A model generated the notes under the pieces. The model was not told the origin of the DNA. It made no database searches and saw nothing but the letters and a program-made list of their open reading frames with translations. Shown piece after piece: positions 9,617-39,658 of a stretch of DNA of 40,096 nucleotides. How positions within the stretch are numbered: position 1 is the stretch's first letter; each line of letters opens with the position of its first letter. This DNA is from an uncultured SAR116 cluster alpha proteobacterium (GTDB taxonomy: Bacteria; Pseudomonadota; Alphaproteobacteria; Puniceispirillales; Marisalimonadaceae). Position numbers and translations under genes: made by a program. Where the stretch lies: assembly GCA_902539895.1 (NCBI GenBank), contig CACBMD010000013.1:1-40096 (forward strand), read 5' to 3'.

Positions 9617-10897
9617 TTATCTTAAATAATCAAATAAATTAAGTTGTGAAATTTTTACAAATGATTGCTGACTTGCCTGCATAGACGTCAACATACTTTG
9701 TAAGTTAGTAACTAAAGCTGCAAGATCTGCATCCTTTAAATCACTTACATCTTTTTCAACCCCTAATCTTCGGTTAGCTAAAAGCTCTACTTGTCTTTCA
9801 AGAGAGTTAGTTCTAGCTCCAATTTCACCTCTATTATTTGCAATATGTACCTGAGTTGAAGCTACATTATCAAGTTGTTTTGACGGTAATTGATCATTGT
9901 CATATAACTTCTGAACACCACCTATGTTGTTTCCAATTCCATCTGTAGGTTGAACTTTAAAAAATGAAGAAGGATCTTTTTGTGCAGTGTCAATCCCGTA
10001 AACTGAAAGATTCTTGATTTCCATTGGACCGTTAACTGAATCAGTTAATTTAATTGTTTTTCCATCATCCATAATTGTTGCATCAACCCCAGTATTGCCA
10101 ATATTAATTTGTCTTACAAACTCTGCAGGATCTTCGCCTGTAATTTCAGCTGTAATTGTTGCTGTACCCAAATTTCCTGTTAAATCAAAAGTCCATGTGC
10201 CAGGGTTTTTATTCTCAAAAGTAAGTTCTGCTACACCTGTTGATTTAACTGAATCGACACCTCCAGAAGCCGTCCTTATTGAATAGCTAATATCTTCTAA
10301 CATTTGGAAAATTGAAACATTCTCTCCTGATGGTCCCTTTACAGCTTGAAATAAAGTTCCACCATCAAGAGTTGTTTCCATCACTCTTGACTCAGAAATT
10401 GATAAAGATGCTATACCCCTATCTCCTTTGTAATTTATTTTGCCAGTTAGATCTTTTACAAAAGGAATAGTATTTGTTTTGTAGCCACTGAATAAAAAAC
10501 TTCCATTACTATCTTGTGCATTAGCTAAACTTAATATTTCTTCTTTCATCTGATCAACTTCAATAGCAATTGCTTCTCTATCTGATGCACCTAAAACGTC
10601 ACTTGAAGCCTGGATGATCAATTCCTGAACTCTTATAAAAACATTTGATAAGTTTTCTAAATTTTTATCTATTAATGATAATCTATCATCAGCTGAATTT
10701 ACGTTTCTCTCATATTGTTCAATTTGCTTTTTAACAACATTTAGGCCTGATAACTCAACAGATCCAACTGGATCATCTGAAGCCCTTAAAATATTTTCAC
10801 CAGTAGCAATTTTATTCTGAAGATCTTGAAGTTCTTCAGTTGTTGATGAAAATTGTTTTAATTGCTGTTGATTAAATAATTTTGAACTAATCTGCAT
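9617..10897 (-). CDS. flgL: Flagellar hook-filament junction protein FlgL (HAP3)
   Basis: FlgL forms the outer of two adaptor rings between hook and filament. The N-terminus has the flagellin-like pattern of the family (LQDLQNKIATGENILRASDD, then ANSADD-type motif NVNSADDRLSLIDKNLENLS). The C-terminus ends as FlgL does, with a helix containing DLKDADLAALVTNLQSMLTS and then ISQLNLFDYLR. At 426 residues it is close to normal size. Unlike its partner FlgK and the flagellin it caps onto, it shows no type I or II repeats, so the expansion is selective. It is the last gene of the flgG-L run and starts 18 bases after flgK. Confidence 0.95.
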   Translation of the reverse strand: MQISSKLFNQQQLKQFSSTTEELQDLQNKIATGENILRASDDPVGSVELSGLNVVKKQIEQYERNVNSADDRLSLIDKNLENLSNVFIRVQELIIQASSDVLGASDREAIAIEVDQMKEEILSLANAQDSNGSFLFSGYKTNTIPFVKDLTGKINYKGDRGIASLSISESRVMETTLDGGTLFQAVKGPSGENVSIFQMLEDISYSIRTASGGVDSVKSTGVAELTFENKNPGTWTFDLTGNLGTATITAEITGEDPAEFVRQINIGNTGVDATIMDDGKTIKLTDSVNGPMEIKNLSVYGIDTAQKDPSSFFKVQPTDGIGNNIGGVQKLYDNDQLPSKQLDNVASTQVHIANNRGEIGARTNSLERQVELLANRRLGVEKDVSDLKDADLAALVTNLQSMLTSMQASQQSFVKISQLNLFDYLR

Positions 10898-10915: not shown

Positions 10916-13900
10916 CTAAACAACCTCTATTAGAGATTGGAACATTTCTTTAGCAGTTTGCAAAATTCGTGCCGAAGCTTGATATGCTTGTTGAAACTCG
11001 AGTAAGTGTGCAGCTTCTTCATCAAGATTAACTCCAGCAAATTCACTTTGACTTGCCTCTGCTGCATCTAATGTGCTTGATGCTGAATCGAGAGATAACT
11101 TACTTGCTTGAACATTTGATCCTACTTTAGCAACAGTAGTATTAAAAATTTCTTGAAAATTTCCTTTATTGCCACCTGATTTGTCTGACCCTTGAAGACC
11201 TAAAATATTTACAATGTTTCTGTTGTCTCCAAAACCATCCTTATTACTTGAAAAATCAAAGCTATTATTAACTATAGTCTCATCAGAGAATTGAAATTTC
11301 GTATTATTTATTTCAAAAACTCTGTTAACGTCTAAAATTCTTGATGCGATCGAATGACCAGAAACTTTATCAAAAATTTCAACTTTATTCTTATTTGACG
11401 AATCTACCTTAATTGTAAGTTCAGGTATATCTTCTGTATATTCGCTCTCTGAAAATTTATCATATTCAGCACTAATTTTTCTAGCACCACCTCCCATAAC
11501 AAAGGTAATCAAATCCTCTGGTGGTAAATTTGTTAAACTTATTTTTTCTGCAACTGAATTTTGAATTGAACCAGATGGTACATCAACTTTTACTGGCTCA
11601 CCTGAGAACGATGAAACCTTAAGACTATCATTATCAATAACAGCTCTAATGTTTTGAGTTTTTAAGCCATATACAAAATCGGCATTAGGACTGCTTTCAA
11701 TTTTAAAGTCAACTTTATCAATAGTATTGCTTAATGATAATCTACCAACTTTTTGAGTACCTACCTTTACTGTTGAAGCAGATGCACTTGTAGGCACTAT
11801 AGATGAAATCTGAGTAAATACTTTGGTTCCTGTTACAATTTCATTAGCTGCTTTTGCAGTTAAAACTTCAGTTTGTGCGTTACCAAATTGATCCAAACCT
11901 GTAATTGTATATTTTTCTCCAACATCAGAACCTGCTGGTGTGATTGTAATTACCTGTGGCTCCATAACTACCTGAGTTGCTTGTATTCCAACCTTAATAG
12001 TACTTGCTGAATTGTTGGCGACAGTAATAGATGAAATTTCATTAAAAGAAATTGTACCAGTTACTGTAGAGTTGTTACCTCCAGAAATTGTCTCAGTTTT
12101 AAAAACACCAGATGTATCGTAACCTGAAACCACAAAAGAGTTACTTTCTTCATTTCCATTACAAAAAATGGTTACTTTGCCATTTAATGATTTAGATTTT
12201 GCCAAGGCCCCTTCTAAATATAAATTACCTGCTGTAACTGATTGACTTGTTAACAGACCATCATCGTCAGTGGTAGATAAAATACCATCAGTAATTATAC
12301 CAACTCCTGCCGACATATTGCCATTATATATAGAGGCGTCATCAGTCATGCCTGATGTTTCATTCCAAGACATTGTTATAGAACTTGGTGGTGAGCCACT
12401 AAGTGCTGATCCATCACTATTGAAAAATACTGGAACTTTTTTACTATCAAATTTTACAGTATAATTTGACTTTACATTGTTTTCAGTAACTTCAATACCA
12501 ATTGCTGGACTAGATGTTGTGGGTTGAACAACAAAATTTCCAAGCATTGTTGTTGTTCCTTCTTTTAAACCAAAAGTTTCAGCATTAGCAGTATTCGCGG
12601 TATTAGAAACTAATTTAAATTGAGCACCTTCAATTGTACCTTCTGCTGTTGCTATAAGCTCATATCCAGGTGCTGTTCCAATTTCAACGTTACCTGTAGT
12701 ATTTGAAGCTGGAGTAATTGAGTGGATTGTTTTAAATAAACCTGAAGATACAACAGTTTTTCCAGAATTTGGCCCAAAAATAGTTTCAGTTTTACTTAAT
12801 CCATCTGTACCTGTACCAACTATTGTAAATGAATTACTACTTTCATCTGCAGTGGCAGTAATAGACATTCTTGTGCCTAGTGATGAAACAAAGGCAGGTG
12901 TAGTTCCAATTTCAACATCGCCATGGTCACCATTAACTCTTATCTCAGTAACTGTTTTAAAAACTTTAGTTCCTGTATTGGTTGCATTCTGCCCATTCAC
13001 ACCATTAATTTCATCAGTTATTAGATTACCGTCTAGATCAGTACCAGTAATAGTGATTTTAAAAGCAGTATTATCATCGTTGTCGGTATTTTTAATTGTT
13101 ATTCTAGAATTAAGAGATGTGCTATCTTTTAGTGCTCCAGTAAGTGGAATTACCGGAAAATTAGCATTTGATGGGTCTGGATTCATATCTTGAACAATCC
13201 CATCACTATCTGCTGCTGTAGAATTTAAGCCATTAATAGTTAGGGGTGTTGCTGCAGTACCAGTCTGGGATACTGCAATCAAATTATTTATATTTTCTGA
13301 TGTTCCATTAAAGCGTGCTTTAATTCTATTTGTTTCAGGTCCCTCAACAATCAATTCTCCAGACGCCATTTTAAGAGTATAGACTTGTCCTTCAAAACTT
13401 AAATCTACAGATTTTCCATCTTGAGGTAGTGCATTAAGCACAACACTTTTTACTTGAGATGTTGGCGTTTGAGATCTAAGTGATGTAAGCAATGCAGTAG
13501 AAATTTCTTTTTGTGTATCAATGTTTAATGCATTTGCATCGATGGTTGTGTTCCAATTTCCGTCAGCTGCTTTAGTTCCAATCTTAATTTGTCCATTACT
13601 AGTACCTGAAGAGTTTATAGATGTAACAGACTTAAAAATATTGGTTGTAGTTACAACACCACCATTTGATCCAGCTATTCTTTCTGAAATAACTTCGTTA
13701 TTCAGACCCAACCCAGCAATCACAAACGTTGTACCCGTTGTATCTTCTCTACTCTTAATTTGAATTTTTGCTCCAAGATAATTAGACGTGCGCAATACAC
13801 CATTCATTGAAATGGCACCTGAAGAAAAATTTGTTAATTGAACCAAGCTATCATCGTCATTAATATCATTATGACCAATTGTTCCAATATTTATATTACC

Positions 13901-16900
13901 ACCTGGTCTAACAGTAGAGCTTATAGAACTTATAGTAGTAAATTTTGTAGAACCTTCAACTGTATTGGCTACTGTTCCAATCTTAATGTTGCCACTTGCA
14001 GTAACTGAAGTCGTAATTGAAGATATGGTTTTAAATTTTTTTGTACCTTCAGCTGTATTATTAGCTGTCGCACCTTTAATTTGTTCAGTAATAATAGTAC
14101 CATCTGCGTTTTTTCCAGTCACTGTAAATATATTTCCGCTTTCATCCGCAGAGGAGAAAATGGTTACAGCTGCATTTATATTGTTGACACCTACACCACT
14201 TAAAGAACCATTAAGTGAAATAGCACCTGCAGAACCAGGATTTCCTAAAGTGAATAAGCTATCATCATCAATAGATCTCGCACCTGTAATTTGTTCTGTA
14301 ATAGTTGAACCATTTGAGTTTGTTCCAGTAACAGTAAATATGTTTGCGCTTTCATCCGCAGAACAATAAATGGTTACAACTGCATTTAAATCATTAGCAT
14401 CTTTTAATGCTCCATCAAGTGTAATAGTTCCCGAAGAATTAGGTCTCTTTGAGGTGAACAAACTATCATTATCACTCACGAATAATTTATAATCTTTTTG
14501 ATTTAAATCAATTCCATACTTTGATAAACCAACAATAGCCTTTTTACCATTAGGAGATCCAAGACTATTATCTAAGTCATCAAAGATCTCGGGTTTAACA
14601 GTAACAACTTCGCCTGTTTTACTCCTATCAATATTTATATATCCATTAGTTAATGAGTCTATAACTGCTACTTTAGAAACTCCTGAATTTATTTGTGTTG
14701 TAAAAGTTTCACTAGATGTAAATTTTATCTCACCCTTGATATTTGCTGATACTTTCTTTGTATTACTAATGTCTATTAATAATTTTGAATTTAATTGAGA
14801 GTCGTTTTCACTAAATTTTTCAAAATCTTTTCCAAATCCTTCAAGATAAAAATCTGAGGGTGCAGTTATATTTTTTAAATTAATGTCATATCCATCTTTA
14901 GATTCAATGATTATTTTCTTAAAATCAGACGTAACTGTTGCTAATAAACCTGTCTGTGAAGAATACTCATTAATTCTTTTTGCAAGTGCTGAAATATCGC
15001 TGGCATCGATACTTGCGTTGATTGATACTGCATCAGAGTTTTTACCCTTTAAATCGAATGTTATTGCGCCACTAACACCATCATCAAACGGACCAAGTAA
15101 AACTCTTGTATTTGCTGATACATTTACTCCAGTACCCGCTAACTCGGTATTTAATTTATTAGCTAAATAAAAAGCACTAGAACCCACGGGTACATTTGTA
15201 GTTTTTTCTATATTATCATCATTAATAACTTTAAGAGTGTAGCCAACAGCTTCTGTTCCTATAGTTATCTTGCCAGCTGAATCACCATCTATACTTATAT
15301 TTCTTACCCTGCTGAAAACTTTACTACCAACTGCTGTAGTTGCATTACCACCAGGAATAGTTTCAGTTTGATATAATCCATCTAAATCATAACCTGTAAC
15401 GGTAAATGTTCTTCCTGATTCATCTTTCTCACATGCAATTGAAATATATGAATTAAGTTCTTTTGAATGTATTTTTGTTCCATCAAGTGTTATAATTCCA
15501 GAAGAAAAATCTTTTATTGAGGCGCCATTTGCGTGTGCTGCTGCTGTAGATGTAAGATTGTTAACTGTTGTTCCCCTAACTACACCTGTAAAAGAAGTTG
15601 CAGTTACGCCAGTATAAGTCACATATTCTGATCCAATTAACAATGTACCAGATGCAGGATATCCTGTTGTACTTGCGACATTAATGGTAGTAGCCGTAGG
15701 GTTTAATGCTTGAGAAATGGTTGTATTTCTATCATGTTTTGCAGCTGTTGTACTACTTACTGCTCTGGTTACCCCAGTAAAAGTTGTTCCTGTTTTACCT
15801 GTGTATGTAAAAAGCTCGTTACCAATTTGAATAGCACCAGCAGAATCAAATGCTGAAGTGTCTGCTACAGTTATTGTTCCTGAACTAGACATGATGTCGC
15901 CACTTCCAATAACTAAATTAACAGCAGCGCTATGTGCATGATTCTCAGCAGTACTACCTTCTTGAGCTCTGGTTACACCTGTTAGATTATTTCCATTGAC
16001 ACCTGTATATGTGAAATATTCAGAACCAATTTTAATTGTTCCTCCGGCACTAGGAAAACCTGTAGTAGACTGAAGTGGTATTTGAGTAACAGCGCTAGTA
16101 CCTAATGTTCCACCAGAGTTATTGTAAGTTGATTCTCCTCCTCTGACAGTGGTTGCAGCAGTATAATTTAATGATGTTTCTCTTAATGTAGTTTCAATCA
16201 ACGATACAGTCTTGGAAGTTAACAAACCATCCATATCTGTTTCTTGTTCATTATAACTAAGGTTTGATCCAAAACTACTTACAAAATCTCCACTTGCTGT
16301 TTTCCTTGTTATGTTTGTGCCTCTATAATTATTGTTTAAATAATCATTTCTATATTCAGCACTCTCTAAAAATCCATTTTCTTTTTTTATTAATGAAGCT
16401 ATTTGTATTGCATTAAGTGATGTTCCTGATACATGCCTACCATCTCTTGTAAAAATCTGTAAATTACTAGCTACTGTTTCACCAGCTGTTAAATTCGTAA
16501 TTGAGGGAGTAAATGAATTACCTTTAGACAAAATTGAAGAACTCTCAATATCTAAAGAAGATGAAGCAATTGTAAGATAACCATTTGATCCAGTGGCAAA
16601 TAAACCTAATTTTTTAAAATCATGTTGACTTTTCCCGTCTAACATTAAACCAGAGTTTAGCAAGTTAGCAAATTCTTCAACTGATCTGATGCCATCTCCA
16701 GGATCTGTTGCTGCAGAACTAATAGTAATTTCTTCATTATTACTACCGTCTGTAAGTTTAATACTAAATGATGAAAAACCTTTGATATCTGCATCTGAAA
16801 TTGTAAATGTAGCTGATGATTGGTTTCCAAGAGAACTTAAATTGATTGATTTAGTCGTTGAAGGAATTGTGGTTACAGGACCGTCTTTTAAAAAAGTTGT

Positions 16901-18331
16901 AGCAACTAGAGGGTTTCCACTAGAGGAAAAAACTTCATCAATAGTAGAAGGATAATCTATAATAGCTTGTGTTGTTGTACCTATAATGTTTAATTCTACA
17001 TTACCTACATTGGATGCACTTTTTGAAACTAAATTTCTTGAAGCAGCTGCAAAATCTTCAGGATTTTGAAGATTAAATTTCATAGCTCCCGCTTTTGTTA
17101 AAGATGGAGATATTTGAAAACCATCACCATCTCGGGGTTGACCAATAATTTCAACTTGAAATCCATTAAAATTAATTTTATTTCCTACAGCCTTAGACAA
17201 ACCCTTGGAGTCTCTTATTTCCCAGTTATTATTTATTTTTGAATAATTAACTAAAATTTTCTCTTGGGTAATTTTACTTGGATCACCCTCAATTATGTTA
17301 AATTTTAATTGTGATTTATTATTAAAGTTAGCTTGTGGTAACATTGAATTCACAGAAAACATAGCTTTTCCAGATTTACCATTTAGATCAATTCCAGAGG
17401 TTTGAATTTCATTTACATCATTTGAAAATTGTTCTGCAAGTTGACTTATTTCGCTACTCACTGAATCAACTAAATTATAGAATTTTGAGATTCCATTTAT
17501 AATTCCAGAAGAAAAAATTCCTGGATTTTTTTTACCACCACCTTCATTTATAACTAATGAAACATTTTTATCATCAAACGAAGATGAAATGGTTGAGCCT
17601 TTAGCTCTGTTGACTAAAAAAGCACCATTACCTGAGTCACCCAGTCTTACTATTGCCTCCCCCGTACCTGCATAATCAACAGTAAAATTTAAAAGTTTTG
17701 ATAAATCTATAAGCAACTTGTCTCTTGCATCCAAGACATCGTTTGATGCTTCACTTGAACCACTAGTGGCAATTAGTTTATTTATTTCTACCAACTGATT
17801 TATATATAAGTTAGCTTCTTCTATTTTGATGTCGATTTGCTTTATTGAGTTTGATTTAAAATTTTTAAATTGATTATCATAATTATTAAATGCAGAAGCC
17901 AGTGCTTTACCAGCTTCTAATGATACTGTTCTTGCAGAAATACTATCAGGATTACTTGCTACGTCTTGAAGAGTATCAAAAAATCTACCTATAAAGACAC
18001 CTAAATCACTTCCTGAGGGTAATAACATATTTTCTAAGTCACTCAGCTTAGAAACGAAATCATTTAACATTTCATAATCAGATTGTGAGGTTCTCGTTTT
18101 ATCTGCAAGATAAGCGTCAAACGATCTGCGAACATTAGTAACCCTGACACCCAATCCTGAGTTATCTGAAACGTTTGTTGGTCCACCTGTTACGCCAGCA
18201 ACTTCACTTATATCTGCACTTCTTTTATTGTATCCATCAGTGTTTATGTTAGCAATATTCTGACCTGTTACTGATAAAGCCTGTCTATATGCTTGAACAC
18301 CTGTTTTTCCAATTTCAAATAAGGAGGCCAT
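10916..18331 (-). CDS. flgK: Giant hook-associated protein FlgK (HAP1)
   Basis: FlgK forms the inner adaptor ring between hook and filament. Its ends are typical: N-terminal TGVQAYRQALSVTGQNIANI, NTDGYNKRSADI, then a long helical D1 to about residue 330; C-terminal ASKLSLDSASSTLDAAEASQ, GVNLDEEAAHLLEFQQAYQA and SARILQTAKEMFQSLIEVV. The protein is 2471 residues, against roughly 450 to 700 commonly, so some 1900 to 2000 residues are inserted in the surface-exposed middle. That insert holds three type II repeats (about residues 744-937) and eight type I modules (one at about 961-1033, seven at about 1317-2195). No frameshift or stop interrupts the reading frame. The start codon overlaps the flgJ stop as TAATG, with AAGGAGG-like sequence absent; translation may be coupled. 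It is the largest gene in the window. Confidence 0.95.
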   Translation of the reverse strand: MASLFEIGKTGVQAYRQALSVTGQNIANINTDGYNKRSADISEVAGVTGGPTNVSDNSGLGVRVTNVRRSFDAYLADKTRTSQSDYEMLNDFVSKLSDLENMLLPSGSDLGVFIGRFFDTLQDVASNPDSISARTVSLEAGKALASAFNNYDNQFKNFKSNSIKQIDIKIEEANLYINQLVEINKLIATSGSSEASNDVLDARDKLLIDLSKLLNFTVDYAGTGEAIVRLGDSGNGAFLVNRAKGSTISSSFDDKNVSLVINEGGGKKNPGIFSSGIINGISKFYNLVDSVSSEISQLAEQFSNDVNEIQTSGIDLNGKSGKAMFSVNSMLPQANFNNKSQLKFNIIEGDPSKITQEKILVNYSKINNNWEIRDSKGLSKAVGNKINFNGFQVEIIGQPRDGDGFQISPSLTKAGAMKFNLQNPEDFAAASRNLVSKSASNVGNVELNIIGTTTQAIIDYPSTIDEVFSSSGNPLVATTFLKDGPVTTIPSTTKSINLSSLGNQSSATFTISDADIKGFSSFSIKLTDGSNNEEITISSAATDPGDGIRSVEEFANLLNSGLMLDGKSQHDFKKLGLFATGSNGYLTIASSSLDIESSSILSKGNSFTPSITNLTAGETVASNLQIFTRDGRHVSGTSLNAIQIASLIKKENGFLESAEYRNDYLNNNYRGTNITRKTASGDFVSSFGSNLSYNEQETDMDGLLTSKTVSLIETTLRETSLNYTAATTVRGGESTYNNSGGTLGTSAVTQIPLQSTTGFPSAGGTIKIGSEYFTYTGVNGNNLTGVTRAQEGSTAENHAHSAAVNLVIGSGDIMSSSGTITVADTSAFDSAGAIQIGNELFTYTGKTGTTFTGVTRAVSSTTAAKHDRNTTISQALNPTATTINVASTTGYPASGTLLIGSEYVTYTGVTATSFTGVVRGTTVNNLTSTAAAHANGASIKDFSSGIITLDGTKIHSKELNSYISIACEKDESGRTFTVTGYDLDGLYQTETIPGGNATTAVGSKVFSRVRNISIDGDSAGKITIGTEAVGYTLKVINDDNIEKTTNVPVGSSAFYLANKLNTELAGTGVNVSANTRVLLGPFDDGVSGAITFDLKGKNSDAVSINASIDASDISALAKRINEYSSQTGLLATVTSDFKKIIIESKDGYDINLKNITAPSDFYLEGFGKDFEKFSENDSQLNSKLLIDISNTKKVSANIKGEIKFTSSETFTTQINSGVSKVAVIDSLTNGYINIDRSKTGEVVTVKPEIFDDLDNSLGSPNGKKAIVGLSKYGIDLNQKDYKLFVSDNDSLFTSKRPNSSGTITLDGALKDANDLNAVVTIYCSADESANIFTVTGTNSNGSTITEQITGARSIDDDSLFTLGNPGSAGAISLNGSLSGVGVNNINAAVTIFSSADESGNIFTVTGKNADGTIITEQIKGATANNTAEGTKKFKTISSITTSVTASGNIKIGTVANTVEGSTKFTTISSISSTVRPGGNINIGTIGHNDINDDDSLVQLTNFSSGAISMNGVLRTSNYLGAKIQIKSREDTTGTTFVIAGLGLNNEVISERIAGSNGGVVTTTNIFKSVTSINSSGTSNGQIKIGTKAADGNWNTTIDANALNIDTQKEISTALLTSLRSQTPTSQVKSVVLNALPQDGKSVDLSFEGQVYTLKMASGELIVEGPETNRIKARFNGTSENINNLIAVSQTGTAATPLTINGLNSTAADSDGIVQDMNPDPSNANFPVIPLTGALKDSTSLNSRITIKNTDNDDNTAFKITITGTDLDGNLITDEINGVNGQNATNTGTKVFKTVTEIRVNGDHGDVEIGTTPAFVSSLGTRMSITATADESSNSFTIVGTGTDGLSKTETIFGPNSGKTVVSSGLFKTIHSITPASNTTGNVEIGTAPGYELIATAEGTIEGAQFKLVSNTANTANAETFGLKEGTTTMLGNFVVQPTTSSPAIGIEVTENNVKSNYTVKFDSKKVPVFFNSDGSALSGSPPSSITMSWNETSGMTDDASIYNGNMSAGVGIITDGILSTTDDDGLLTSQSVTAGNLYLEGALAKSKSLNGKVTIFCNGNEESNSFVVSGYDTSGVFKTETISGGNNSTVTGTISFNEISSITVANNSASTIKVGIQATQVVMEPQVITITPAGSDVGEKYTITGLDQFGNAQTEVLTAKAANEIVTGTKVFTQISSIVPTSASASTVKVGTQKVGRLSLSNTIDKVDFKIESSPNADFVYGLKTQNIRAVIDNDSLKVSSFSGEPVKVDVPSGSIQNSVAEKISLTNLPPEDLITFVMGGGARKISAEYDKFSESEYTEDIPELTIKVDSSNKNKVEIFDKVSGHSIASRILDVNRVFEINNTKFQFSDETIVNNSFDFSSNKDGFGDNRNIVNILGLQGSDKSGGNKGNFQEIFNTTVAKVGSNVQASKLSLDSASSTLDAAEASQSEFAGVNLDEEAAHLLEFQQAYQASARILQTAKEMFQSLIEVV
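11745..14385 (-). repeat. Seven type I repeat modules in FlgK
   Basis: Modules of about 75 to 110 residues at roughly 14210-14385, 13935-14180, 13560-13790, 12890-13110, 12660-12880, 11975-12170 and 11745-11955. The shared core is DESxxxFTVTGxDxxGxxxTExI, then TVxGTKxFKxIxxI, then GxIxIGT. Many are preceded by a DDDGL...GAISLxGAL block. The first is cut short, and the second has a partial inner duplication of its second half. Copies are clearly diverged. Boundaries are approximate. Confidence 0.8.
15230..15450 (-). repeat. Isolated type I module in FlgK
   Basis: ESGRTFTVTGYDLDGLYQTE, then TAVGSKVFSRVRNI, then GKITIGTEA. It directly follows the type II block in the protein and is separated from the other seven modules by unrelated sequence. 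Confidence 0.75.
15515..16100 (-). repeat. Three type II repeats in FlgK
   Basis: In protein order: TTGFPSAGGTIKIGSEYFTY then TGVTRAQEGSTAENH; TSAFDSAGAIQIGNELFTYT then TGVTRAVSSTTAAKH; TTGYPASGTLLIGSEYVTYT then TGVVRGT...TAAAH. Each is about 60 residues. The same repeat occurs three times in FlgE. From memory it resembles a repeat common in cyanophage and pelagiphage tail proteins. Confidence 0.82.
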
Positions 18332-20488: not shown

Positions 20489-21274
20489 TTAAAGATTTTG
20501 ACTTATAAATCTGAGCATATCGTCAACTCCTGAAATTGCTTTTGAGTTAACTTCGTACGCTCTTTGTGTTTCAATCATGTCAACTAATTCTTGAACGACA
20601 TTAACATTTGAACTTTCAAGCGCACCCTGAACCAAACTTCCAAATCCATCCTCAAAAGGGTTGGCTATTACTGCTGGACCACTTGCAGGTGTTTCAACTA
20701 ACATTGATTGTCCGATTGGTTGTAAACCCCTTACATTAGCAAAGTCTGCTAACTGGAACTGTCCAACCTCTTCTGCTTCCACCGCACCTGGATTTTGAAC
20801 TGACACAATACCATCAGCTGATACGTTAATGTTTGTTACTCCCTCAGGAATTTCAATTTCTGGTTGAACAACATAACCAGAAGCAGTTGTTAAAAGTCCT
20901 TCTGCATTTCTTCCAAAAGCACCATTTCTTGTAAATCCAATTCTTCCATCTGGCATCAAAACTTGGAAAAAACCAGAACCATCTATTGATAAATCTAATG
21001 CATTGTCTGTTGATACTATATTGCCTTGTGTAAACAGTTTATCAGCATTTATAATTCGTACACCAGTACCAACAGAAAAAGCAGAATTAGTTCTTGTTTC
21101 ACCGGATGTCTGAGCACCTGCAGCTTTAATAACTTGATATAAAAGAGTTTCAAAATTAGCTCTATCTTTTTTAAAGCCAGTAGTATTTACGTTAGCAAGG
21201 TTATTTGCAATTACCTGCATTCTACTATTTTGAGCATTTAAGCCAGTTTTAGCTACGTGCATTGCATTAGACAT
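20489..21274 (-). CDS. flgG: Flagellar distal rod protein FlgG
   Basis: FlgG forms the distal rod. At 261 residues it has the normal length and family pattern: MHVAKTGLNAQNSRMQVIAN, NLANVNTTGFKKDRANFETL, an LDLSIDGSGFFQVLMPDG block, a GFTRNGAFGRNAEGLLTTAS block, and the C-terminal GALESSNVNVVQELVDMIET then AYEVNSKAISGVDDMLRF. No repeats are inserted, in contrast to FlgE and FlgK. A sigma54-type promoter directly upstream makes flgG the head of the flgG-H-I-J-K-L run. AAGGAG precedes the ATG. Confidence 0.97.
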   Translation of the reverse strand: MSNAMHVAKTGLNAQNSRMQVIANNLANVNTTGFKKDRANFETLLYQVIKAAGAQTSGETRTNSAFSVGTGVRIINADKLFTQGNIVSTDNALDLSIDGSGFFQVLMPDGRIGFTRNGAFGRNAEGLLTTASGYVVQPEIEIPEGVTNINVSADGIVSVQNPGAVEAEEVGQFQLADFANVRGLQPIGQSMLVETPASGPAVIANPFEDGFGSLVQGALESSNVNVVQELVDMIETQRAYEVNSKAISGVDDMLRFISQNL

Positions 21275-21339: not shown

Positions 21340-22092
21340 TTAGCTTGGCATTCTCATCAGAGATGCACTTGCTTCGTCTATTTCTTGGGCAGTACTTATA
21401 AATTTAACATTTATTTCATAGGCTCTCGATTGATCGATGCCAGTTACTAATTCGTCGACTGACTTTACATTAGACCCTTCTAAAAACCCACTTAAAAGTC
21501 TTGTTCTATTATCAAGTTCAGGGATTGTTCCATCAACAGTTCTAACAAAACCATCAGTGGATTTGGCTAATGGTAATTCTGATCCAGAAGTAGTACCAAG
21601 TTGACCAACTCTTACCTTTTGTCCAAGTGGAGCATTGAGTGGCTCAATTTCGACAATCCCATCACCAGAGACAAAAATTTTTCTATGAGGTGGTATTATT
21701 ATAGGTTCAAGATCTACACTTAATGGCTGTGATCCAGCTCCATCTCTTAAAGTTCCATCAGCTGATACTGTAAAATCACCTCTTCTTGATAGTGCTAATT
21801 TACCATTAACAGGTTTTACTACAAAATAGCCGTTACCATCTATAGCAAGATCTAATGGAACTCCAGTAGGTTGAGTTGGTCCGGGTGTTGAGTCAAAGCC
21901 ACCTATATCTTGTAAGGCCATAACTCTTGGATCAATTCCCTTATCTCTATCTAAATATACGGATTCAAAGTTAATTTGAATATCCTTTTGGAAACCAGTT
22001 ACATTTAAGTTTGCTAAGTTTTGTGCTGTAACTGATTTGTTATCTCTCAAAATATTCATACTATTTAGAGCTGTATAAATACTTCTATCCAT
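21340..22092 (-). CDS. flgF: Flagellar proximal rod protein FlgF
   Basis: FlgF is a proximal rod subunit. The N-terminus follows the family (MDRSIYTALNSMNILRDNKS, TAQNLANLNVTGFQKDIQIN). The middle has VPLDLAIDGNGYFVVKPVNG and LSRRGDFTVSADGTLRDGAG. The C-terminus has GFLEGSNVKSVDELVTGIDQ and AYEINVKFISTAQEIDEASA. At 250 residues it is normal. It lies 29 bases after flgE with AAGAGGT before the ATG, and is probably the last gene read from the flgB promoter. Confidence 0.95.
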   Translation of the reverse strand: MDRSIYTALNSMNILRDNKSVTAQNLANLNVTGFQKDIQINFESVYLDRDKGIDPRVMALQDIGGFDSTPGPTQPTGVPLDLAIDGNGYFVVKPVNGKLALSRRGDFTVSADGTLRDGAGSQPLSVDLEPIIIPPHRKIFVSGDGIVEIEPLNAPLGQKVRVGQLGTTSGSELPLAKSTDGFVRTVDGTIPELDNRTRLLSGFLEGSNVKSVDELVTGIDQSRAYEINVKFISTAQEIDEASASLMRMPS

Positions 22093-22121: not shown

Positions 22122-25100
22122 TTATGTTCTGATTTGAATAATCGCTTGTGTTAGACTTGTGTTAGTTTCAATTGTTTTAGCATTCGCTTGGAAGTTTCTT
22201 TGCGCAGTAATTAAGTTAACTAACTCTTCAGTAATATCAACATTTGATCTTTCTAAAGAACCAGATAAAATTGTACCATAACCATCTGCTCCAGCTTCTC
22301 CAACTGCAGCAACACCTGAAACTGAAGTTTCAACATATGTTGCGTTACCGATTTGCTTCAATCCGTTTTGGTTATTAAAATTAACCATAACCAATCTTCC
22401 AAGGGCAATGTTCAAACCATTAGTATAGTTAGCACTAACTAATCCGTTAGCAGCAATGTCCAAACCATCTAACTTACCAACTGTTTGTCCATCTTGGGTA
22501 ACCGTCCTAACATTAAAGTCAGATGCAAATTGAGTTGATCCATCAAAATCTAGATCTAAATCAATCGACAGAGCATTAGTACCTGCTGCTGCGTCTGCTG
22601 CAAAGTCACCTTTATAATTCACTTTTTGTGTAGGACTAACTAAGTTACCTTGAGTATCAAAAGTTAATTCTCCTGGTCTCAAAAATACTTTTGCAAAAGT
22701 ACCATCAGTAGTTGGTGTCCATGCATTATCTGGTGCTAGAGTTGTTGTTGTTCCAGCATCATTCACATACAAAGACTGACCAGTATCTGATTTAGCAATT
22801 GTATTAGCCATATTAACAAATGAGGGTGTAGTACCTGTTTGCAGTTCAAGATCATTTAATCCCATACGAGAACTTGCTGATACAAATATTTTACTATTTA
22901 AACCAGTTGTTCCTGTAGTAAATGTAAATGAATTGCTTGTTGTATTATATACTACAGTTACACCGTTAACAGTGTTACCTGAGGAATCTTCCATCTGATT
23001 AATTCTTGATTGCAATGCTGTTGCCAAAGAGGTTCCGTTATATACTCCTTCAGGTACTTTAATAGCAGCAGTTATATCATTTACGTTTACAACAAAAATT
23101 GTTTCTTCAGCGGCGTCTGATAAAAAGAAATCTTCAGACAAATCTTCGTTTGAAGTTTTTCCATTTAAAACTGCAGCTTCTGATTGTAAACCTTTACCAG
23201 AAGTGTCTGCAGTAACAGTGGTAATTTCGTTAGTAGCATTTATTCCTAGTAAAGCACTTGTACCACCAATACCTGCAGCAGAAGCTGTTGCAACGCCATC
23301 TACTATTGCCAATCTTCCAATTTCTATATTTGATGAGGCCTGACCAGCATCACCAACACCTACAGCAGAGTTTGCAGGTATATTTTCACCGGTAGTTCCA
23401 CTGGCAATGCTAAATTTTCTAGTCAGGTTGTTATAAGATACTTCTACACCAAAAGCTTGCTGAGTATCTGCAGCAATCTGGTCACCAGTAAATAAAACTG
23501 ATTCAGCTTTTAAAACTGCACCACCGCCAATATTTGATGATGCCTTATTACTTAACGTTTTTAAACCAATAGCGTTCGCACCACTACCTTCACCTGGTCC
23601 ATATGCTGAAAATGAAAACATTTTGCTTGAAGTAGATGTACCAATTTTTGAAGGAATGCCCTGTAAAGTAAAGTTTTGTCCAGATATATCATAAGCTATT
23701 CTTAATGCTGGGTCATCTTCATCTACCCAGTCATCAGAGTTAGAAATTTCTTGTGTAATAACAGTATCATTTGTGTGACTAGCCGCAGTCGTTCCCGCCA
23801 CACCTCTTGTTAAGCCTGTAAAGCTTGTTGCGGTTTTACCCGTATATGCAATCACCTCATTATCTATTCTTATAAAACCACTATCCTCAAAATCTGCAGT
23901 AGAATCTACAGTAATAGTTGTAGCTGTAGCATTTACATCGGTATTAACGTCAGTTGTTCTATTAGATAATCCTAGATTTACTACACTATCATACAAACTT
24001 ACGGTAGCTCCAACTGCAAGTGCCTTACTTTCGCTATTGTCAACACTTCGAGTGATACCGGTAAGAGTTGTAGCAGTTTTTCCAGTGTAGGTAATAATCT
24101 CATCGCCAAGCTTAATTTTTCCTGGGGCATCAGCCGTTGCGTCAGAAAATCCTGCTGTTGATCCAACATTTAACACTTCAGAATCTGCCGGTAGAAAAGA
24201 AATTGAGGTATCATCTGCTATAGCAGCAGTCGTAGCTGCACTTATAGTTATTGTATTTCCATTAACGTTTGTAACTGTAGTACCAGCAGTTACGCCGGCA
24301 ACTTCAACAATGTCACCTACTGAGATATTTGTGTTAGCATCTACTACAATGGTAGTTGCTCCAGCAGCTACTGCACCATCATTAAGAACTTGAGCACCTA
24401 AACCATCAGCGTCAACAAAATTTATCTCATCACCATTAATATCACCACCATTTACTGTTGTAGCTGCGTCCTTTGATAAAGTAATTACATTACCATTAAT
24501 TGCTGATACAGTTGTCGCTGTATCAATATTAGTTCCGTATACAGAATCTCCTACTGAGATGCCCGTTACATCTGCAACAGTAAGGCTTCGTCGATTTGCT
24601 GAATAATCAAGAGTTCCAGTAGTATGACTACTCGACAAAAATGTAACTTTAGTTCCAGCAACGGTTGCCGTTGTTGCTGTAAGGGCTGCAGTTGTATTGG
24701 CACTTAAAGTTACAGTAGAAGTACTATGATTAATGACAGTAACCCTTGTATTAGCTGGTATACCAGCACCAACAACCATGTCACCTACTCTAACACCTTT
24801 AGTTCCTCCATCTACAACTAAAGAATTAGTGCCAGCTCCTGCTGCACCTGTAGTTTCTCTAATTATATTTGTTGCTACAGTGGTTGATGTATTTCTTAAA
24901 ATATCCTTAAAACCACTCATAATACCATCCGTAAAAGTTAATAACTTTATTGAGGCATCATCAAGATGTGCAGCAGCAACAGTACTATTAGCACCTCTTG
25001 TTATTCCAGTAAAAGTTGTTGCAGTAGTTCCAGTATATGTTATTTGCTCTGTTCCAATCAATAAGGTACCAGATGTTGGAAATCCTGCTGTTGTGTCTAC

Positions 25101-27236
25101 AGTTAGTGCTGCACCAGTAGCTGGAGAGCTATTAGTAACTGAAGAGCTATTTAATAAAGTATCTGGCTGCTGAATATTTTTGTTTATATATGAATGCTTA
25201 TTAAGTTCTTTTAATACAATTCTATTACTTCCAAAATGCTCAGTCTGACCAGAAAAAACATCTGTTCCGCCCTCAAATTGTGCTGATATATCTTTAGATT
25301 CTGAATATAAAACTTTGATCTTAGTATCAGTTATATTTATTGCTGCAGTTGAATCAGATTTAAGGTTTAAAAATTCATTACCATTTGCATCCGTTCCTGC
25401 ACTTGATACAGAAAACTTTGCACCATTATATTTTAAATTGTTTACTGTTGAAACAGTTGTATCAAATTCTCCAGCAAGAAAAACTTCAGTAGGAAAACTT
25501 GTTGAACTGATTGTATTAGTAGTATCATTTATATAAACTTTTAATGTACCACTAGCATCTTGTACCATTGTGTTTCCACCAACAGCAGTGACGTCTACAG
25601 CTTTATCAAATACCTTTAAAGTAGGTGAAGAATTATAATAACTATGAAGTAAAAATTTTTCTTCAGTAGTAACATTATTTTCATCCGTTAAATCGGTTGT
25701 TGGATGTTTATAATTAAAACTTAAAACTTCAGTTTCCTTAATAGCACCTGTAAGAGCCTTACCAGTTACTCTATTAAATAATTGTGAACTTACACCATAT
25801 GTTGAGGAATTATTTGTATTCCCATCAGACGACACAGCTGCCCTATTTAGCGCATCATTAATTCTTAATTGTGCATGAGATAAAAACTCTTCTCTTGTAA
25901 AGTTTGGTGATGCAACGTTTTCAATACCATTCGTACCTGCAAAAAGCTTTTCAGTTACAAAACTGTCTTTCATCAGATCAACATTGATTGCTGACAAAGT
26001 TTGAATTTCATCGTTGTTATCAAGTTGGTTAAACTGAATTGAAAAACTTCCATCTGTTACTGGGTCAATTGCTAATTTTGAATCGTCTGACAAACCAGCA
26101 TTTATTGCTCTTTGAACTTCAGATGCAAGAGTAGTAGCAGTGTAAGTACCTGGTCTTATATCTATACTTTTAAAACTCGCACTACCAGTCGTATCATCAA
26201 CACGAACTGTTAAAAAATCTTTTCCCCAATATGTTGATTTATTTAATGTCGGATTTGCTTCATAAGTTGTGTAATATTGTAATGGATCAGTCACAACTGT
26301 AATGGAAGGAGCTGTTGCAGTAAAGGCAGCATCCTCTAAAACTGTTGACTCAACTGTTGCTGCCTGAGATACAGTCTTGTTAGACAAATCATCTAAGTAA
26401 AAAAGTGGTTGTGTCTGGGCAACTGAAATAATCTGTGGCTTTTCATTGATTGGAATAATTTGACCAAAACGATCAACAACTAATGTCTGTCCTGTAGGAG
26501 AAATGGCTTCTGTTAGTGATGGTTGGACCTCTCTTCCGTCAACAATAAACTTAGTTTGGTACTTATGTGTTACTTGATCTCCAGATGCAGCTTGAGTTTT
26601 GATAAAAAAGGCAGTTGCAATAACTGGATTACCCAAGTTATCAAAAATTGTAACAGAAGTTGATGAATTAAAGGTGGCAGGATTTTTAGGATCAAAATCT
26701 GCAGCAGATTCAAATACTGTTGATGATGCGGGTAAGTTTACAGCTAACTCAAGATTATCTGTTTTTTTAGCTTCACCTGCTTCCAACTCTAATTTTAATG
26801 GTTTAGCGTCTACAATTTCACCACCTTGCACGGAACCATCGTCTGACACTGGTAGTGCAAGAACGAACTGACCAGCTGAGTCAACAACAAATCTATCATT
26901 ATTAACTGAAAATGAACCATTTCTTGTATAAACAGTTTGATTAGTAGTTAATGACGGCTTTAGAGCAAAAAAACCTTGTCCGGAAATCGCCATATCCAAC
27001 GCATTAAGTGATGAGGAGACGTTTCCTTGAGTAAACTGTTGTTTAATACCTTTCAAAATTGTTCCAGAACCAATAGAAGATGAGGCATTTTGTAATGGGG
27101 ATGTAGCAAATATATCACCAAATTCAGCCTTACTTCTTTTGTAGCCTGTTGTTGCAACGTTAGCAATGTTGTTTGAAGTAGCTGAAATGTCAGCTTGTGA
27201 TCCGTTAAGTCCTGTAAGAGCGGTGTAAAATGACAT
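22122..27236 (-). CDS. flgE: Giant flagellar hook protein FlgE
   Basis: FlgE is the hook (universal joint) subunit. The ends are typical: MSFYTALTGLNGSQADISAT, SNNIANVATTGYKRSKAEFG, ALDMAISGQGFFALKP, and C-terminal GRLVMVNFNNQNGLKQIGNA, GTILSGSLERSNVDITEELV and NLITAQRNFQANAKTIETNT. The protein is 1704 residues against about 400 to 450 in enteric bacteria. The N-terminal 280 residues run as normal FlgE. About 1200 residues are then inserted before the conserved ELTFDTQGNLVSP strand, which in normal FlgE follows within the outer domain. The insert holds three type II repeats, at least three type III repeats, and other Thr/Ser-rich beta-type sequence. The frame is open throughout. It sits between flgD and flgF as usual. 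Confidence 0.96.
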   Translation of the reverse strand: MSFYTALTGLNGSQADISATSNNIANVATTGYKRSKAEFGDIFATSPLQNASSSIGSGTILKGIKQQFTQGNVSSSLNALDMAISGQGFFALKPSLTTNQTVYTRNGSFSVNNDRFVVDSAGQFVLALPVSDDGSVQGGEIVDAKPLKLELEAGEAKKTDNLELAVNLPASSTVFESAADFDPKNPATFNSSTSVTIFDNLGNPVIATAFFIKTQAASGDQVTHKYQTKFIVDGREVQPSLTEAISPTGQTLVVDRFGQIIPINEKPQIISVAQTQPLFYLDDLSNKTVSQAATVESTVLEDAAFTATAPSITVVTDPLQYYTTYEANPTLNKSTYWGKDFLTVRVDDTTGSASFKSIDIRPGTYTATTLASEVQRAINAGLSDDSKLAIDPVTDGSFSIQFNQLDNNDEIQTLSAINVDLMKDSFVTEKLFAGTNGIENVASPNFTREEFLSHAQLRINDALNRAAVSSDGNTNNSSTYGVSSQLFNRVTGKALTGAIKETEVLSFNYKHPTTDLTDENNVTTEEKFLLHSYYNSSPTLKVFDKAVDVTAVGGNTMVQDASGTLKVYINDTTNTISSTSFPTEVFLAGEFDTTVSTVNNLKYNGAKFSVSSAGTDANGNEFLNLKSDSTAAINITDTKIKVLYSESKDISAQFEGGTDVFSGQTEHFGSNRIVLKELNKHSYINKNIQQPDTLLNSSSVTNSSPATGAALTVDTTAGFPTSGTLLIGTEQITYTGTTATTFTGITRGANSTVAAAHLDDASIKLLTFTDGIMSGFKDILRNTSTTVATNIIRETTGAAGAGTNSLVVDGGTKGVRVGDMVVGAGIPANTRVTVINHSTSTVTLSANTTAALTATTATVAGTKVTFLSSSHTTGTLDYSANRRSLTVADVTGISVGDSVYGTNIDTATTVSAINGNVITLSKDAATTVNGGDINGDEINFVDADGLGAQVLNDGAVAAGATTIVVDANTNISVGDIVEVAGVTAGTTVTNVNGNTITISAATTAAIADDTSISFLPADSEVLNVGSTAGFSDATADAPGKIKLGDEIITYTGKTATTLTGITRSVDNSESKALAVGATVSLYDSVVNLGLSNRTTDVNTDVNATATTITVDSTADFEDSGFIRIDNEVIAYTGKTATSFTGLTRGVAGTTAASHTNDTVITQEISNSDDWVDEDDPALRIAYDISGQNFTLQGIPSKIGTSTSSKMFSFSAYGPGEGSGANAIGLKTLSNKASSNIGGGAVLKAESVLFTGDQIAADTQQAFGVEVSYNNLTRKFSIASGTTGENIPANSAVGVGDAGQASSNIEIGRLAIVDGVATASAAGIGGTSALLGINATNEITTVTADTSGKGLQSEAAVLNGKTSNEDLSEDFFLSDAAEETIFVVNVNDITAAIKVPEGVYNGTSLATALQSRINQMEDSSGNTVNGVTVVYNTTSNSFTFTTGTTGLNSKIFVSASSRMGLNDLELQTGTTPSFVNMANTIAKSDTGQSLYVNDAGTTTTLAPDNAWTPTTDGTFAKVFLRPGELTFDTQGNLVSPTQKVNYKGDFAADAAAGTNALSIDLDLDFDGSTQFASDFNVRTVTQDGQTVGKLDGLDIAANGLVSANYTNGLNIALGRLVMVNFNNQNGLKQIGNATYVETSVSGVAAVGEAGADGYGTILSGSLERSNVDITEELVNLITAQRNFQANAKTIETNTSLTQAIIQIRT
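23750..24195 (-). repeat. Two type II repeats in FlgE (distal pair)
   Basis: In protein order: KIKLGDEIITYTGKTATTLT then GITRSV (about 24000-24195), and GFIRIDNEVIAYTGKTATSF then TGLTRGVAGTTAASH (about 23750-23950). They match the FlgK copies, including the YTGKTxTTxTGxTR core. Confidence 0.82.
24195..24850 (-). repeat. Three type III repeats in FlgE
   Basis: About 65 residues each, with core VxVGDxVxGxxIxxxTxVxx then INGNxITLSxxTTAAI. The copies contain GVRVGDMVVGAGIPANTRVT, GISVGDSVYGTNIDTATTVS and NISVGDIVEVAGVTAGTTVT. They are packed between two type II repeats. I did not find this type elsewhere in the window. Confidence 0.75.
24945..25135 (-). repeat. Type II repeat in FlgE (proximal copy)
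   Basis: TTAGFPTSGTLLIGTEQITY, then TGTTATTFTGITRGANSTVA and AAH. It is nearly a consensus copy of the type II repeat and very like the third FlgK copy (TTGYPASGTLLIGSEYVTYT). Confidence 0.85.
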
Positions 27237-27269: not shown

Positions 27270-27962
27270 TTAATTTTTAAATCTGACAACTTGAGAGGGA
27301 TCAATTGTTCCATAATCCTCAACCTCTAACATTACTCCAGTATCAGTTTTTGAAGTTCCTGAAACATGAGCAAAAACTTGAGTTGGCAACTCACCAGTAT
27401 CACCTGTATTACCAGTAAATGCTCTAATTGTTACTGGAGTGCCAGACTTTTTAATATCATCTGGTAAATCTTTCCATTCAAAACCAACTAAACCTGCCTT
27501 TTGCATTCCTAATGTATCTTGATGCAAGACCTCACCTTCACTATTTTCGAAAATAATATTTAAATTAGATGCTGTATCCGGTAAATCCACGACACCACTA
27601 ATAATGCCCTCTTTGTCAGGCCTTGCGAACTTTCCAGGTACTAATACGGAATGTCCCATCAGCTGTGTTGTTGAAGCAATTCTCATCTCAGATAACTGTT
27701 GACTAACTGACTTCATGGTCTGATCCATCGAAGTTATACCTGTTACTGTTGAGAATTGTGCCATTTGGGCTATAAAATCAGCATTATCAACTGGTGCAAA
27801 TGGATCTTGATTTTGCAACTGTGTTGTCATTAATTTTAAAAAATCTTCTTGACCAAGTTGATCTTTAGCTTCTTTAGGTGCAAATTTCTCTTTAGCTGAG
27901 TTAATACCTAATTTATCTAAAATTTTGGTTAATGATTGATTTGATGAATTAATTTCAGACAT
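27270..27962 (-). CDS. flgD: Hook scaffolding (hook cap) protein FlgD
   Basis: FlgD caps the growing hook and guides FlgE assembly. The N-terminal conserved block is present: LGQEDFLKLMTTQLQNQDPF, APVDNADFIAQMAQFSTVTG, with SMDQTMKSVSQQL after it and a STTQLMGHSVLVPGK region. The C-terminal half is the Fn3/tudor-like part with a GLVGFEWKDLPDD segment. At 230 residues it is normal. AAGGAT precedes the ATG; it starts 9 bases after flgC. It must cap a hook made of very large FlgE, yet is not itself enlarged. Confidence 0.95.
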   Translation of the reverse strand: MSEINSSNQSLTKILDKLGINSAKEKFAPKEAKDQLGQEDFLKLMTTQLQNQDPFAPVDNADFIAQMAQFSTVTGITSMDQTMKSVSQQLSEMRIASTTQLMGHSVLVPGKFARPDKEGIISGVVDLPDTASNLNIIFENSEGEVLHQDTLGMQKAGLVGFEWKDLPDDIKKSGTPVTIRAFTGNTGDTGELPTQVFAHVSGTSKTDTGVMLEVEDYGTIDPSQVVRFKN

Positions 27963-31644: not shown

Positions 31645-31648
31645 TGTA

Positions 31649-32803
31649 TTACTCCACAAATTTAACAATCTTATTATTCAAGTTTGTTAATTTAACATTA
31701 TCGTTTAAAGGTAACAAAGTACTGTAATTGTCAAAAACATCATCTGTATGAACTATTAGTACACTGTCATTTAACATAGAATTTTGAATCTTAATCCCAT
31801 TCACCAGACCAATTTGTTTTTGTTTAAGTCCTTGCTTGCTTCCTAAATCTACTTCAAGTTTACCCTCATTAAGAGTTAACTTGCCCTCTAAGGGTGTGCA
31901 ATTAATATCATAAAAAAAACTATTTATTACCTTTGACAAATGACTATTCACATTTTGGTCGATTTTATCTAAATCCAAAGTAGAGATATTTTTTAAGAAC
32001 TGGAATTTACTATCTAATTGATAATTAATAAGTAGATCATAACTTTTTGACGTCTCTAACCTAATTTTTTTCCCCTTATATAAATCAAATGAAACTGTTA
32101 ATAAATAATTGGCAAAACTATTTTTATTTGTTTTTTTCAGAACTATTTTTGGCACAAGGCTATAATTACCAGGATACATTATCGGTATACCTTTAGTTAT
32201 CGCATTGTAATCAAAAGAAGGATTTTGAGATGATTTAATAATTTGATTAAGTTGTCTATTTTGAAAATTATTTATTTCTAAGTTTGGAAATTTAGATATA
32301 TAATCATAAGTTTTGTTATACCATAAGGAAGTATATCTCGCTAATCTAGAGGGAACGTTTGTATCAACTGTAATTGATCCTTTAAATAAATTGATATTTA
32401 TAGGTCTAGTTTTACAATTCTGTTTAGATAATTCACTTCCTACAATCGCGCTTATTTTTATAGTCAAGTATTCTTTGTTTTGTGTTTCAGATAAAATTTT
32501 AAAATCAAGTACTCTATTAGTTGCTTTTATAACTGACTGTTCATTTATTATTGTATTTGAGCTAATTGAAGAAAATCCATTAACATTAGCACCACCTTTT
32601 AGAGCAGCTAAGTATATTGCATCTTCTAAAGCTCTTTTTCTTGAGGTTTCAATATTTTCAGGTATTAAAATTGATCTGCCCGTTGCTTCAACTTGTTTGA
32701 AATTAGATTTATCTTGCGCATACAAGTCAAAATTAAACGTTAACAACGCTATAAATATGAAAATTTTATATATATTATTAAATTTAAAAATAATTTTATT
32801 CAT
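31649..32803 (-). CDS. flgT: Flagellar H-ring type protein FlgT
   Basis: FlgT in Vibrio forms the H ring around the LP ring and helps place the sodium stator. The 384-residue product has a signal peptide (to about 29) and an N-terminal domain with QVEATGRSILIPENIETSRK, RALEDAIYLAALKGGANVNG and KATNRVLDFKILSETQNKEY. The C-terminus has LEVDLGSKQGLKQKQIGLVN and the D/N-rich end DNYSTLLPLNDNVKLTNLNN. These match the FlgT N- and C-terminal domains as I know them. It starts 9 bases after flgP and is followed by the LysM gene. It supports a Vibrio-like outer ring on this motor. Confidence 0.87.
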   Translation of the reverse strand: MNKIIFKFNNIYKIFIFIALLTFNFDLYAQDKSNFKQVEATGRSILIPENIETSRKRALEDAIYLAALKGGANVNGFSSISSNTIINEQSVIKATNRVLDFKILSETQNKEYLTIKISAIVGSELSKQNCKTRPININLFKGSITVDTNVPSRLARYTSLWYNKTYDYISKFPNLEINNFQNRQLNQIIKSSQNPSFDYNAITKGIPIMYPGNYSLVPKIVLKKTNKNSFANYLLTVSFDLYKGKKIRLETSKSYDLLINYQLDSKFQFLKNISTLDLDKIDQNVNSHLSKVINSFFYDINCTPLEGKLTLNEGKLEVDLGSKQGLKQKQIGLVNGIKIQNSMLNDSVLIVHTDDVFDNYSTLLPLNDNVKLTNLNNKIVKFVE

Positions 32804-32812
32804 TATATATTA

Positions 32813-33334
32813 CTAAGTTCTTCTTGCGCTTTTTAACATCATAAGCATCATGTCTTTATCAATTTCTAAAACAGTTTCATATGTATCTACACCTGTAGGA
32901 TTAATTCTTACTGTTTTAGCACCTCTAATAATTCCTTTAACAACAGCTCTAAACGTGTCGTTTTGGACCATTAGATCAATTACAGTTGTATTAGAGTCAA
33001 CTTGAATACCATGAATTTGTTCTGCTAATTCTCTCATTGCTGCCATTCTAGCAGATCTGATAGCCATTAATCTTTTTTGTGCGTCTGTTCTGCCTGGTTG
33101 ACTAGAAACAACAGCATAGCCTACGGCTGAAAGAGTCGGTATTTTTTCAACAGAACTGTCAAATACTTCTTTTAGAGCAACTATCCCGTCACTTTCAGAG
33201 TTAATTTGTTTTGAATTGAAACTGCTTGTTGGTGAAAAATTTGAGTTAGCTAAATTCTGAAAGCATCCTGTACTTACAAATAAAGCACAAGTTGTAACAC
33301 CTACTAAAAGATTTTTATGTTTAAAAATTGACAT
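32813..33334 (-). CDS. flgP: Flagellar outer-membrane lipoprotein FlgP (LPP20 family)
   Basis: A 173-residue lipoprotein. The signal peptide ends at a lipobox (STGC, Cys at about 23). The mature part has the LPP20-like block SAVGYAVVSSQPGRTDAQKR, LMAIRSARMAAMRELAEQIH, the VDSNTTVIDLMVQNDTFRAV segment and IIRGAKTVRINPTG. FlgP forms outer-membrane-associated rings (Vibrio) or the basal disc (Campylobacter). Its partner FlgO is not seen here. A sigma54-type promoter lies 36 bases upstream, so flgP heads the run through flgT, LysM, flgA and onward. Confidence 0.9.
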   Translation of the reverse strand: MSIFKHKNLLVGVTTCALFVSTGCFQNLANSNFSPTSSFNSKQINSESDGIVALKEVFDSSVEKIPTLSAVGYAVVSSQPGRTDAQKRLMAIRSARMAAMRELAEQIHGIQVDSNTTVIDLMVQNDTFRAVVKGIIRGAKTVRINPTGVDTYETVLEIDKDMMLMMLKSARRT

Positions 33335-39633: not shown

Positions 39634-39658
39634 TTTGTATCTCCTATATGCTGAATTG

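Follow-up and report, generated by a model that had tools for sequence, protein, structure and literature searches.

The flgE gene in the SAR116 window, i.e. the whole stretch of 40,096 nucleotides analysed here, encodes a hook protein of 1704 residues, in which an insert of ca. 1,200 residues interrupts domain D2. The flagellum has its universal joint in the hook, and in these free-living ocean bacteria this bendable joint would consist of a protein of ca. four times the ordinary size. As judged from sequence comparison, the giant size is shared by an entire clade of marine alphaproteobacterial FlgEs and is not confined to one genome. The giant FlgE follows a known principle, namely a hook protein with extra outer domains, but is extreme in size and has an unusual phage-related tip. 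We found no earlier report of a FlgE this large in the open-access literature on large hooks, SAR116 flagella, and marine hooks.

The interrupted hook protein

The flgE ORF starts with ATG and contains no internal stop. At the two ends of its product, the Pfam domains Flg_bb_rod (residues 3-33), LlgE_F_G_D1 (residues 83-127), and Flg_bbr_C (residues 1658-1702) all exceed their cut-offs. FlgE_D2 (PF07559, 61.9 bits) matches in two stretches on either side of the insert, located at window positions 26370-26735 and 22488-22721 (residues ca. 168-289 and ca. 1506-1583). The two separated halves demonstrate that the insert interrupts D2, while D0, D1, and both D2 halves are themselves intact. The protein scores 272 bits against TIGR03506 (cut-off 70). 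The FlgE equivalog models of NCBIfam still rank first and match both ends, but remain under the whole-protein cut-off (NF004240, 369.5 bits versus 472; NF004238, 355.4 bits versus 400). This is expected because D2 is interrupted, and the cut-off serves annotation and does not mark a biological feature. The original prediction, made from the letters of the DNA, had described a FlgE of 1704 residues with an insert of ca. 1200 residues at a fixed place, and the ORF, the Pfam matches, and the split D2 agree with it. The motif GELTFDTQGNLVSP lies directly after the insert as claimed, and the insertion site is inside D2, where known outer hook domains are inserted. Independent single-cell genomes have a FlgE of the same length (1704 aa and 98% identical in L066) or close to it, so the giant flgE is no assembly artefact. 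Together with purifying selection, these genes also rule out a pseudogene. The features of the window are collected in Table 1.

Table 1. Positions of flagellar genes and of the parts of FlgE in the window
Feature	Position	Strand	Remarks
flgE, hook protein	22122..27236	minus	ORF and Pfam; 1704 aa, 177 kDa, pI 4.4, cysteine-free
D0 and D1 N-terminal parts, first D2 half	26370..27236	minus	residues 1-289; Pfam, split D2, dN/dS <0.03
Insert base, N half	25167..26369	minus	residues 290-690; 387-425 aa in nearly all relatives; dN/dS 0.02-0.06
Insert tip	23742..25166	minus	residues 691-1165; 25-512 aa in relatives; dN/dS 0.12-0.28
Bead A copy 1	24948..25109	minus	residues 710-763
Bead B copy 1	24633..24821	minus	residues 806-868
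Bead B copy 2	24408..24584	minus	residues 885-943
Bead B copy 3	24186..24356	minus	residues 961-1017
Bead A copy 2	24000..24173	minus	residues 1022-1079
Bead A copy 3	23742..23921	minus	residues 1106-1165; 226 phage records match
Insert base, C half	22722..23741	minus	residues 1166-1505; contains domain predicted to resemble flagellin/FliD outer domains
Second D2 half, D1 and D0 C-terminal parts	22122..22721	minus	residues 1506-1704; Pfam, split D2
flagellin (FliC)	1010..3799	minus	929 aa, enlarged
fliD	4092..6719	minus	875 aa, enlarged
flgL	9617..10897	minus	426 aa, ordinary
flgK	10916..18331	minus	2471 aa, enlarged; three bead A copies
flgJ	18331-18663	minus	110 aa; rod-binding part only, muramidase domain absent
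flgG	20489..21274	minus	261 aa, ordinary
flgF	21340..22092	minus	250 aa, ordinary
flgD, hook scaffold	27270..27962	minus	230 aa, ordinary
flgT-like, H-ring component	31649..32803	minus	FlgT_N 41.6 bits, cut-off 28.8
LPP20/FlgP-like lipoprotein	32813..33334	minus	adjoins flgT

Base, tip, and beads of the insert

An alignment of 69 named relatives and the genomes of the order resolved the insert into two layers. A conserved base of ca. 780 residues (ca. 400 plus ca. 375) is broken by a hypervariable tip, from which most of the FlgE length variation among relatives comes. The C half of the base has 368-383 residues in relatives. The exceptions in the N half are a half of 500 residues (L113) and one with ca. 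330 extra residues at a second site (G030). In the latter protein (L053, 13857-18581, minus strand), the usual tip is nearly absent. Its extra segment means that FlgE can be enlarged at another site. Nei-Gojobori dN/dS stays below 0.03 in D0-D2, lies at 0.01-0.06 in the base, and reaches 0.12-0.28 in the tip, which indicates that the whole FlgE is under purifying selection, the tip being least so. The tip contains ca. 20% threonine, has a pI of 4.2, and is cysteine-free; it is a possible target of O-glycosylation.

Structures of the insert were predicted in two parts by AlphaFold2. The tip model (541 aa, 32 sequences) has a mean pLDDT of 75, with most bead stretches at 80-95. The base was modelled with 50 sequences on 1200 residues from L121, a relative with a short tip, whose insert core reaches a pLDDT of 75-93. 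D0-D2 of this model are mostly below 50, and the position of the base against D2 is not given by it. The structure prediction that had been suggested for the insert hence yields confident folds for the tip beads and for the relative's insert core. A domain in the C half of the base (model residues 883-1003) aligns with outer domains of flagellin and FliD and with a phage sheath domain (Z 6-10.5 over ca. 95-111 residues). The models thus provide no more than moderate evidence for this likeness. Long Foldseek alignments of the base with endosialidases were not accepted, as their rmsd is near 30 Å, and a Pfam match of the base to RM6_Med14 is weak and implausible. Our searches of the insert, Pfam among them, revealed neither a catalytic domain nor a known binding domain.

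The tip in this genus is a row of ca. 60-residue β beads. The repeats of the original prediction are found here as three copies of bead A and three of bead B. Two layouts, A-BBB-A-A and A-A-A-A, occur within the genus. The three bead A copies in FlgK of the window (ca. 15512-16087) are 34-50% identical to bead A copy 3 of FlgE. A tblastn search (E≤0.001) with one 63-residue bead found 226 phage records, nearly all of them from Synechococcus, Prochlorococcus, Pelagibacter, and other marine phages or cyanophages. The matched proteins carry the annotations tail tube B, baseplate wedge initiator, or structural protein, and phrog_4406, a virion structural protein, matches bead A at 6e-16. Bead A and the phage beads share 40-61% identity over 41-63 residues. 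Their folds are also alike: comparison of the modelled tip beads with phage domains by VIA-align gave Z scores up to 11 over 64-83 residues, and comparison with phage proteins in BFVD gave, for example, 73 aligned columns with an rmsd of 0.9 and 37% identity. With sequence, BFVD, and VIA-align as its basis, the homology of bead A to a bead of virion proteins from marine phages (e.g. tail tube B of Pelagibacter phage Skadi, and baseplate wedge initiator and structural proteins of Synechococcus phages) is well supported. Unlike the beads of FlgE, those of the phages belong to virus particles. Foldseek detected nothing significant for the tip in the PDB (best E 0.02). Scanning viral_contigs with an alignment of the entire tip gave no relative, since the search patterns fell outside the beads. 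The bead homology ties phages into the evolution of the flagellar surface.

Hook assembly and the role of the insert

We searched the window's own genome (69% complete) and 15 insert-bearing relatives, several of which are 99-100% complete, for FlgE_D2. Each genome has two matches, which are the halves of one gene, and no second D2-bearing gene was found in these 16 genomes; in one of them (G014), the D2-bearing flgE is split by contig ends. As the sole D2-bearing gene, it almost certainly encodes the single hook subunit, judging from sequence. Another protein could in principle form the hook, with the giant gene encoding a specialised non-hook surface protein, and there is a second FlgE/F/G-family protein in the window (38830-39663, minus strand, beside fliA), which the original prediction had considered in this role. 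This protein has 277 residues, close to FlgG in size, and we rejected it as the main hook subunit since it lacks D2. It is conserved in relatives with frames of 263-319 residues, and is perhaps a rod or proximal-hook piece. In contrast, the giant gene is flanked by flgD and flgF within the hook-basal body operon, a FliK gene is present, and D0/D1 are the most conserved parts of the giant FlgE, its first 120 residues sharing 83-93% identity with those from other families in the order. A non-hook role of the giant FlgE is thus very improbable. It is just as hard to credit that the insert is cleaved or trimmed after export to leave an ordinary mature hook. Such a cut would part D2, D1, and D0 into their two halves, although these have to remain together in a single fold, and the base of the insert is under strong purifying selection.

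We consider it fairly probable that the giant FlgE combines a normal D0-D2 joint with an outer sleeve for toughening and decorating the hook, in the manner of Campylobacter D3/D4 but larger and unrelated in sequence. D0-D2 would pack as the usual tube of 11 protofilaments and do the bending. The base would form an extra concentric ring that contacts neighbouring subunits and thereby stiffens and toughens the joint. The tip beads would project from the base ring as a fast-evolving decorative surface layer with a minor role in packing. The near constancy of the base fits a packing role, and the variability of the tip fits a surface role. The strengthening by the base is an analogy only: no solved hook could be linked to the base by sequence, and searches with profiles of its N and C halves retrieved no FlgE from the PDB at E≤1.

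The proposed architecture is closest to that of C. jejuni FlgE (865 aa, PDB 5jxl), which, as described in PMC5069557 and PMC5097172, likewise has conserved D0-D2 and outer domains inside D2 that are fixed inside and variable at the surface. The C. jejuni insert has only ca. 386 residues, and no phage-type beads are reported where these two papers describe it. Structural comparison of our insert effectively covered two parts of the base. We rejected a sequence relationship between our insert and D3/D4, as the best phmmer stretch against 5jxl comprises residues 1522-1703, outside the insert. An alphaproteobacterial hook with an extra domain at the same place is that of Caulobacter crescentus, whose FlgE D3 is described in PMC5069557 and is much smaller. 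According to the same paper, the outer domains of FlgE are hypervariable while D0-D2 form a common tube, and the number of 11 protofilaments is thought to be constant whatever the subunit size.

A solid-packed radius of 12.9 nm, calculated from 177 kDa and an assumed rise of 4.12 Å, was scaled by the ratio in the Salmonella and C. jejuni hooks. By this mass scaling, the hook would be ca. 37-39 nm wide, compared with 18 nm for Salmonella and 28 nm for C. jejuni with its D3/D4 (PMC5097172). It would thus be far thicker than known hooks, as the original prediction had proposed. The question raised there of how such a hook still bends is a smaller puzzle than stated, because the 28-nm C. jejuni hook curves (PMC5097172) and Salmonella FlgE carrying 386 residues inserted in D2 supports motility, although the cells swim more poorly than the wild type (PMC5069557). 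For C. jejuni, D3/D4 are described as adding contacts and making the hook sturdier with its curvature kept (PMC5097172). Through the giant clade, the maximal hook width that still bends becomes testable, and the division into base and tip offers clean deletion targets.

The insert might instead be mainly a surface device, for adhesion to particles or algae or as a shield against flagellum-binding phages or grazers, with the beads selected by outside partners and the mechanics incidental. Tip length and bead make-up differ among close relatives, dN/dS is highest in the tip, the beads are homologous to marine phage virion modules and common to FlgK, and the outer variation of C. jejuni FlgE is attributed to surface exposure in PMC5097172. 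However, dN/dS of the tip is still far under 1, the larger part of the insert is the nearly constant base, which fits packing better than an arms race, and the searches of the insert recovered no catalytic or known binding domain. We therefore regard this reading as possible but rather unlikely. A doubtful variant is that the hook is a second functional surface and not only a joint. Here, the phage-shared beads would be exchanged among the hook protein, FlgK, and viruses, and the collar would be species-specific for binding or shielding, e.g. with respect to flagellum-binding phages or algae. The sleeve around a normal joint remains our preferred reading.

The giant clade and its flagellar system

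FlgE length across sister genomes, the measurement called for by the original prediction, is 1546-1741 aa in the window's SAR116 genus; in the order's other families, it is 1269-1575 aa. Complete base-bearing FlgEs among the relatives found have 1244-1741 residues, whereas the usual length is about 400-780 aa. They are thus 1.4 to 2 times as long as the 865-aa Campylobacter protein, which was called one of the longest (PMC5069557). We scanned the genomes of 84,980 species with the C half of the base, and 163 stretches encode a relative. The best 80 of the 163 include SAR116, HIMB59, the PS1 clade, Nereida ignava (FlgE of 1364 aa), and MAGs of Lentibacter, Sulfitobacter, and Pseudorhodobacter. 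FlgE has 1244-1575 residues in the relatives of the genus, which comprise other SAR116, HIMB59, the PS1 clade, and some Rhodobacterales. The base is carried by 9 of the 289 genomes in a class-wide sample, own genome counted. The next longest D2-bearing frame in the phylum sample has 777 residues. Three other long FlgEs of the class (1071, 988, and 1029 aa in G099, G130, and G068, respectively) have no homologous base, so FlgE enlargement arose more than once. The insert-bearing FlgEs group as a single clade (100/99) in a tree built from 256 columns of D0-D1. This clade adjoins one 421-aa alphaproteobacterial FlgE and FlgEs of other classes of the phylum, and stands apart from the ordinary alphaproteobacterial FlgEs; Caulobacter is not in the tree.

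The surrounding gene run is intact and comprises flgB, flgC, flgD, flgE, flgF, flgG, flgH, flgI, flgJ, flgK, and flgL, with fliD and flagellin beyond; flgB, flgC, and flgH were named by their sequence, without a profile scan. FlgA, FlgM, FlhA, FlhF, a MinD-like FlhG, FliA, and FliS are also encoded in the neighbourhood. As part of the same explanation and with the same likelihood as the sleeve, the system is a polar, gammaproteobacterial-type flagellum present in SAR116 and several other marine alphaproteobacterial lineages. As in Vibrio-type polar flagella with a FlgT/FlgP H-ring (PMC6375700), FlgT_N and LPP20/FlgP-like proteins lie beside the hook operon. Of the 21 insert-bearing genomes tested, 20 have FlgT, and it was not detected in any of 24 further alphaproteobacterial genomes. 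Because the insert-bearing FlgEs form one clade, this association counts as one evolutionary event, not many. Unlike the giant clade, a FlgT-bearing genome elsewhere in the phylum (G381) has an ordinary FlgE of 434 aa.

FlgD, FlgF, FlgG, and FlgL are normal in size as had been noted. The claim that expansion is limited to the outward-facing proteins holds only approximately, as the junction protein FlgL is not enlarged whereas the cap protein FliD is. Since FlgK, FliD, and flagellin are enlarged as well, the extracellular surface of the flagellum may be built out as a whole, and the giant clade makes this testable. FlgK has 1200-2475 residues in insert-bearing genomes versus 450-904 in 19 ordinary genomes of the class, and that of the window is the longest found save a 2475-aa frame in G014. 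We do not claim a fine-scale correlation between FlgE and FlgK lengths, as rho is 0.73 over 22 genomes but falls to 0.12 with one genome per genus (n = 12). A marine precedent is provided by the giant flagellins of Bermanella and Oleibacter, in which the outer domain of an axial protein exceeds 1000 residues, contains repeats, and makes filaments of at least 30 nm (PMC6248924). These build the filament, whereas the giant FlgE builds the hook. Whether the remaining flagellar components are large to a matching degree is a question raised in that paper, and the window's system, in which hook protein, FlgK, FliD, and flagellin are all large, bears on it.

In an order relative (G036, contig C1), twelve Flagellin_N matches occur, most in frames of ca. 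400-520 aa and some in frames of 951-1015 aa. Between flgA and flgT of the window, a small protein (31204-31668, minus strand) has a weak match to the FimV/HubP core, under the curated cut-off. Past flagellin, a TPR protein gene (2-823) runs off the window edge. At the other end, an open-ended ORF (39771-40094, plus strand) has a sub-threshold match to the nitrile hydratase alpha chain (E 0.055) and might encode a leader-peptide-like protein.
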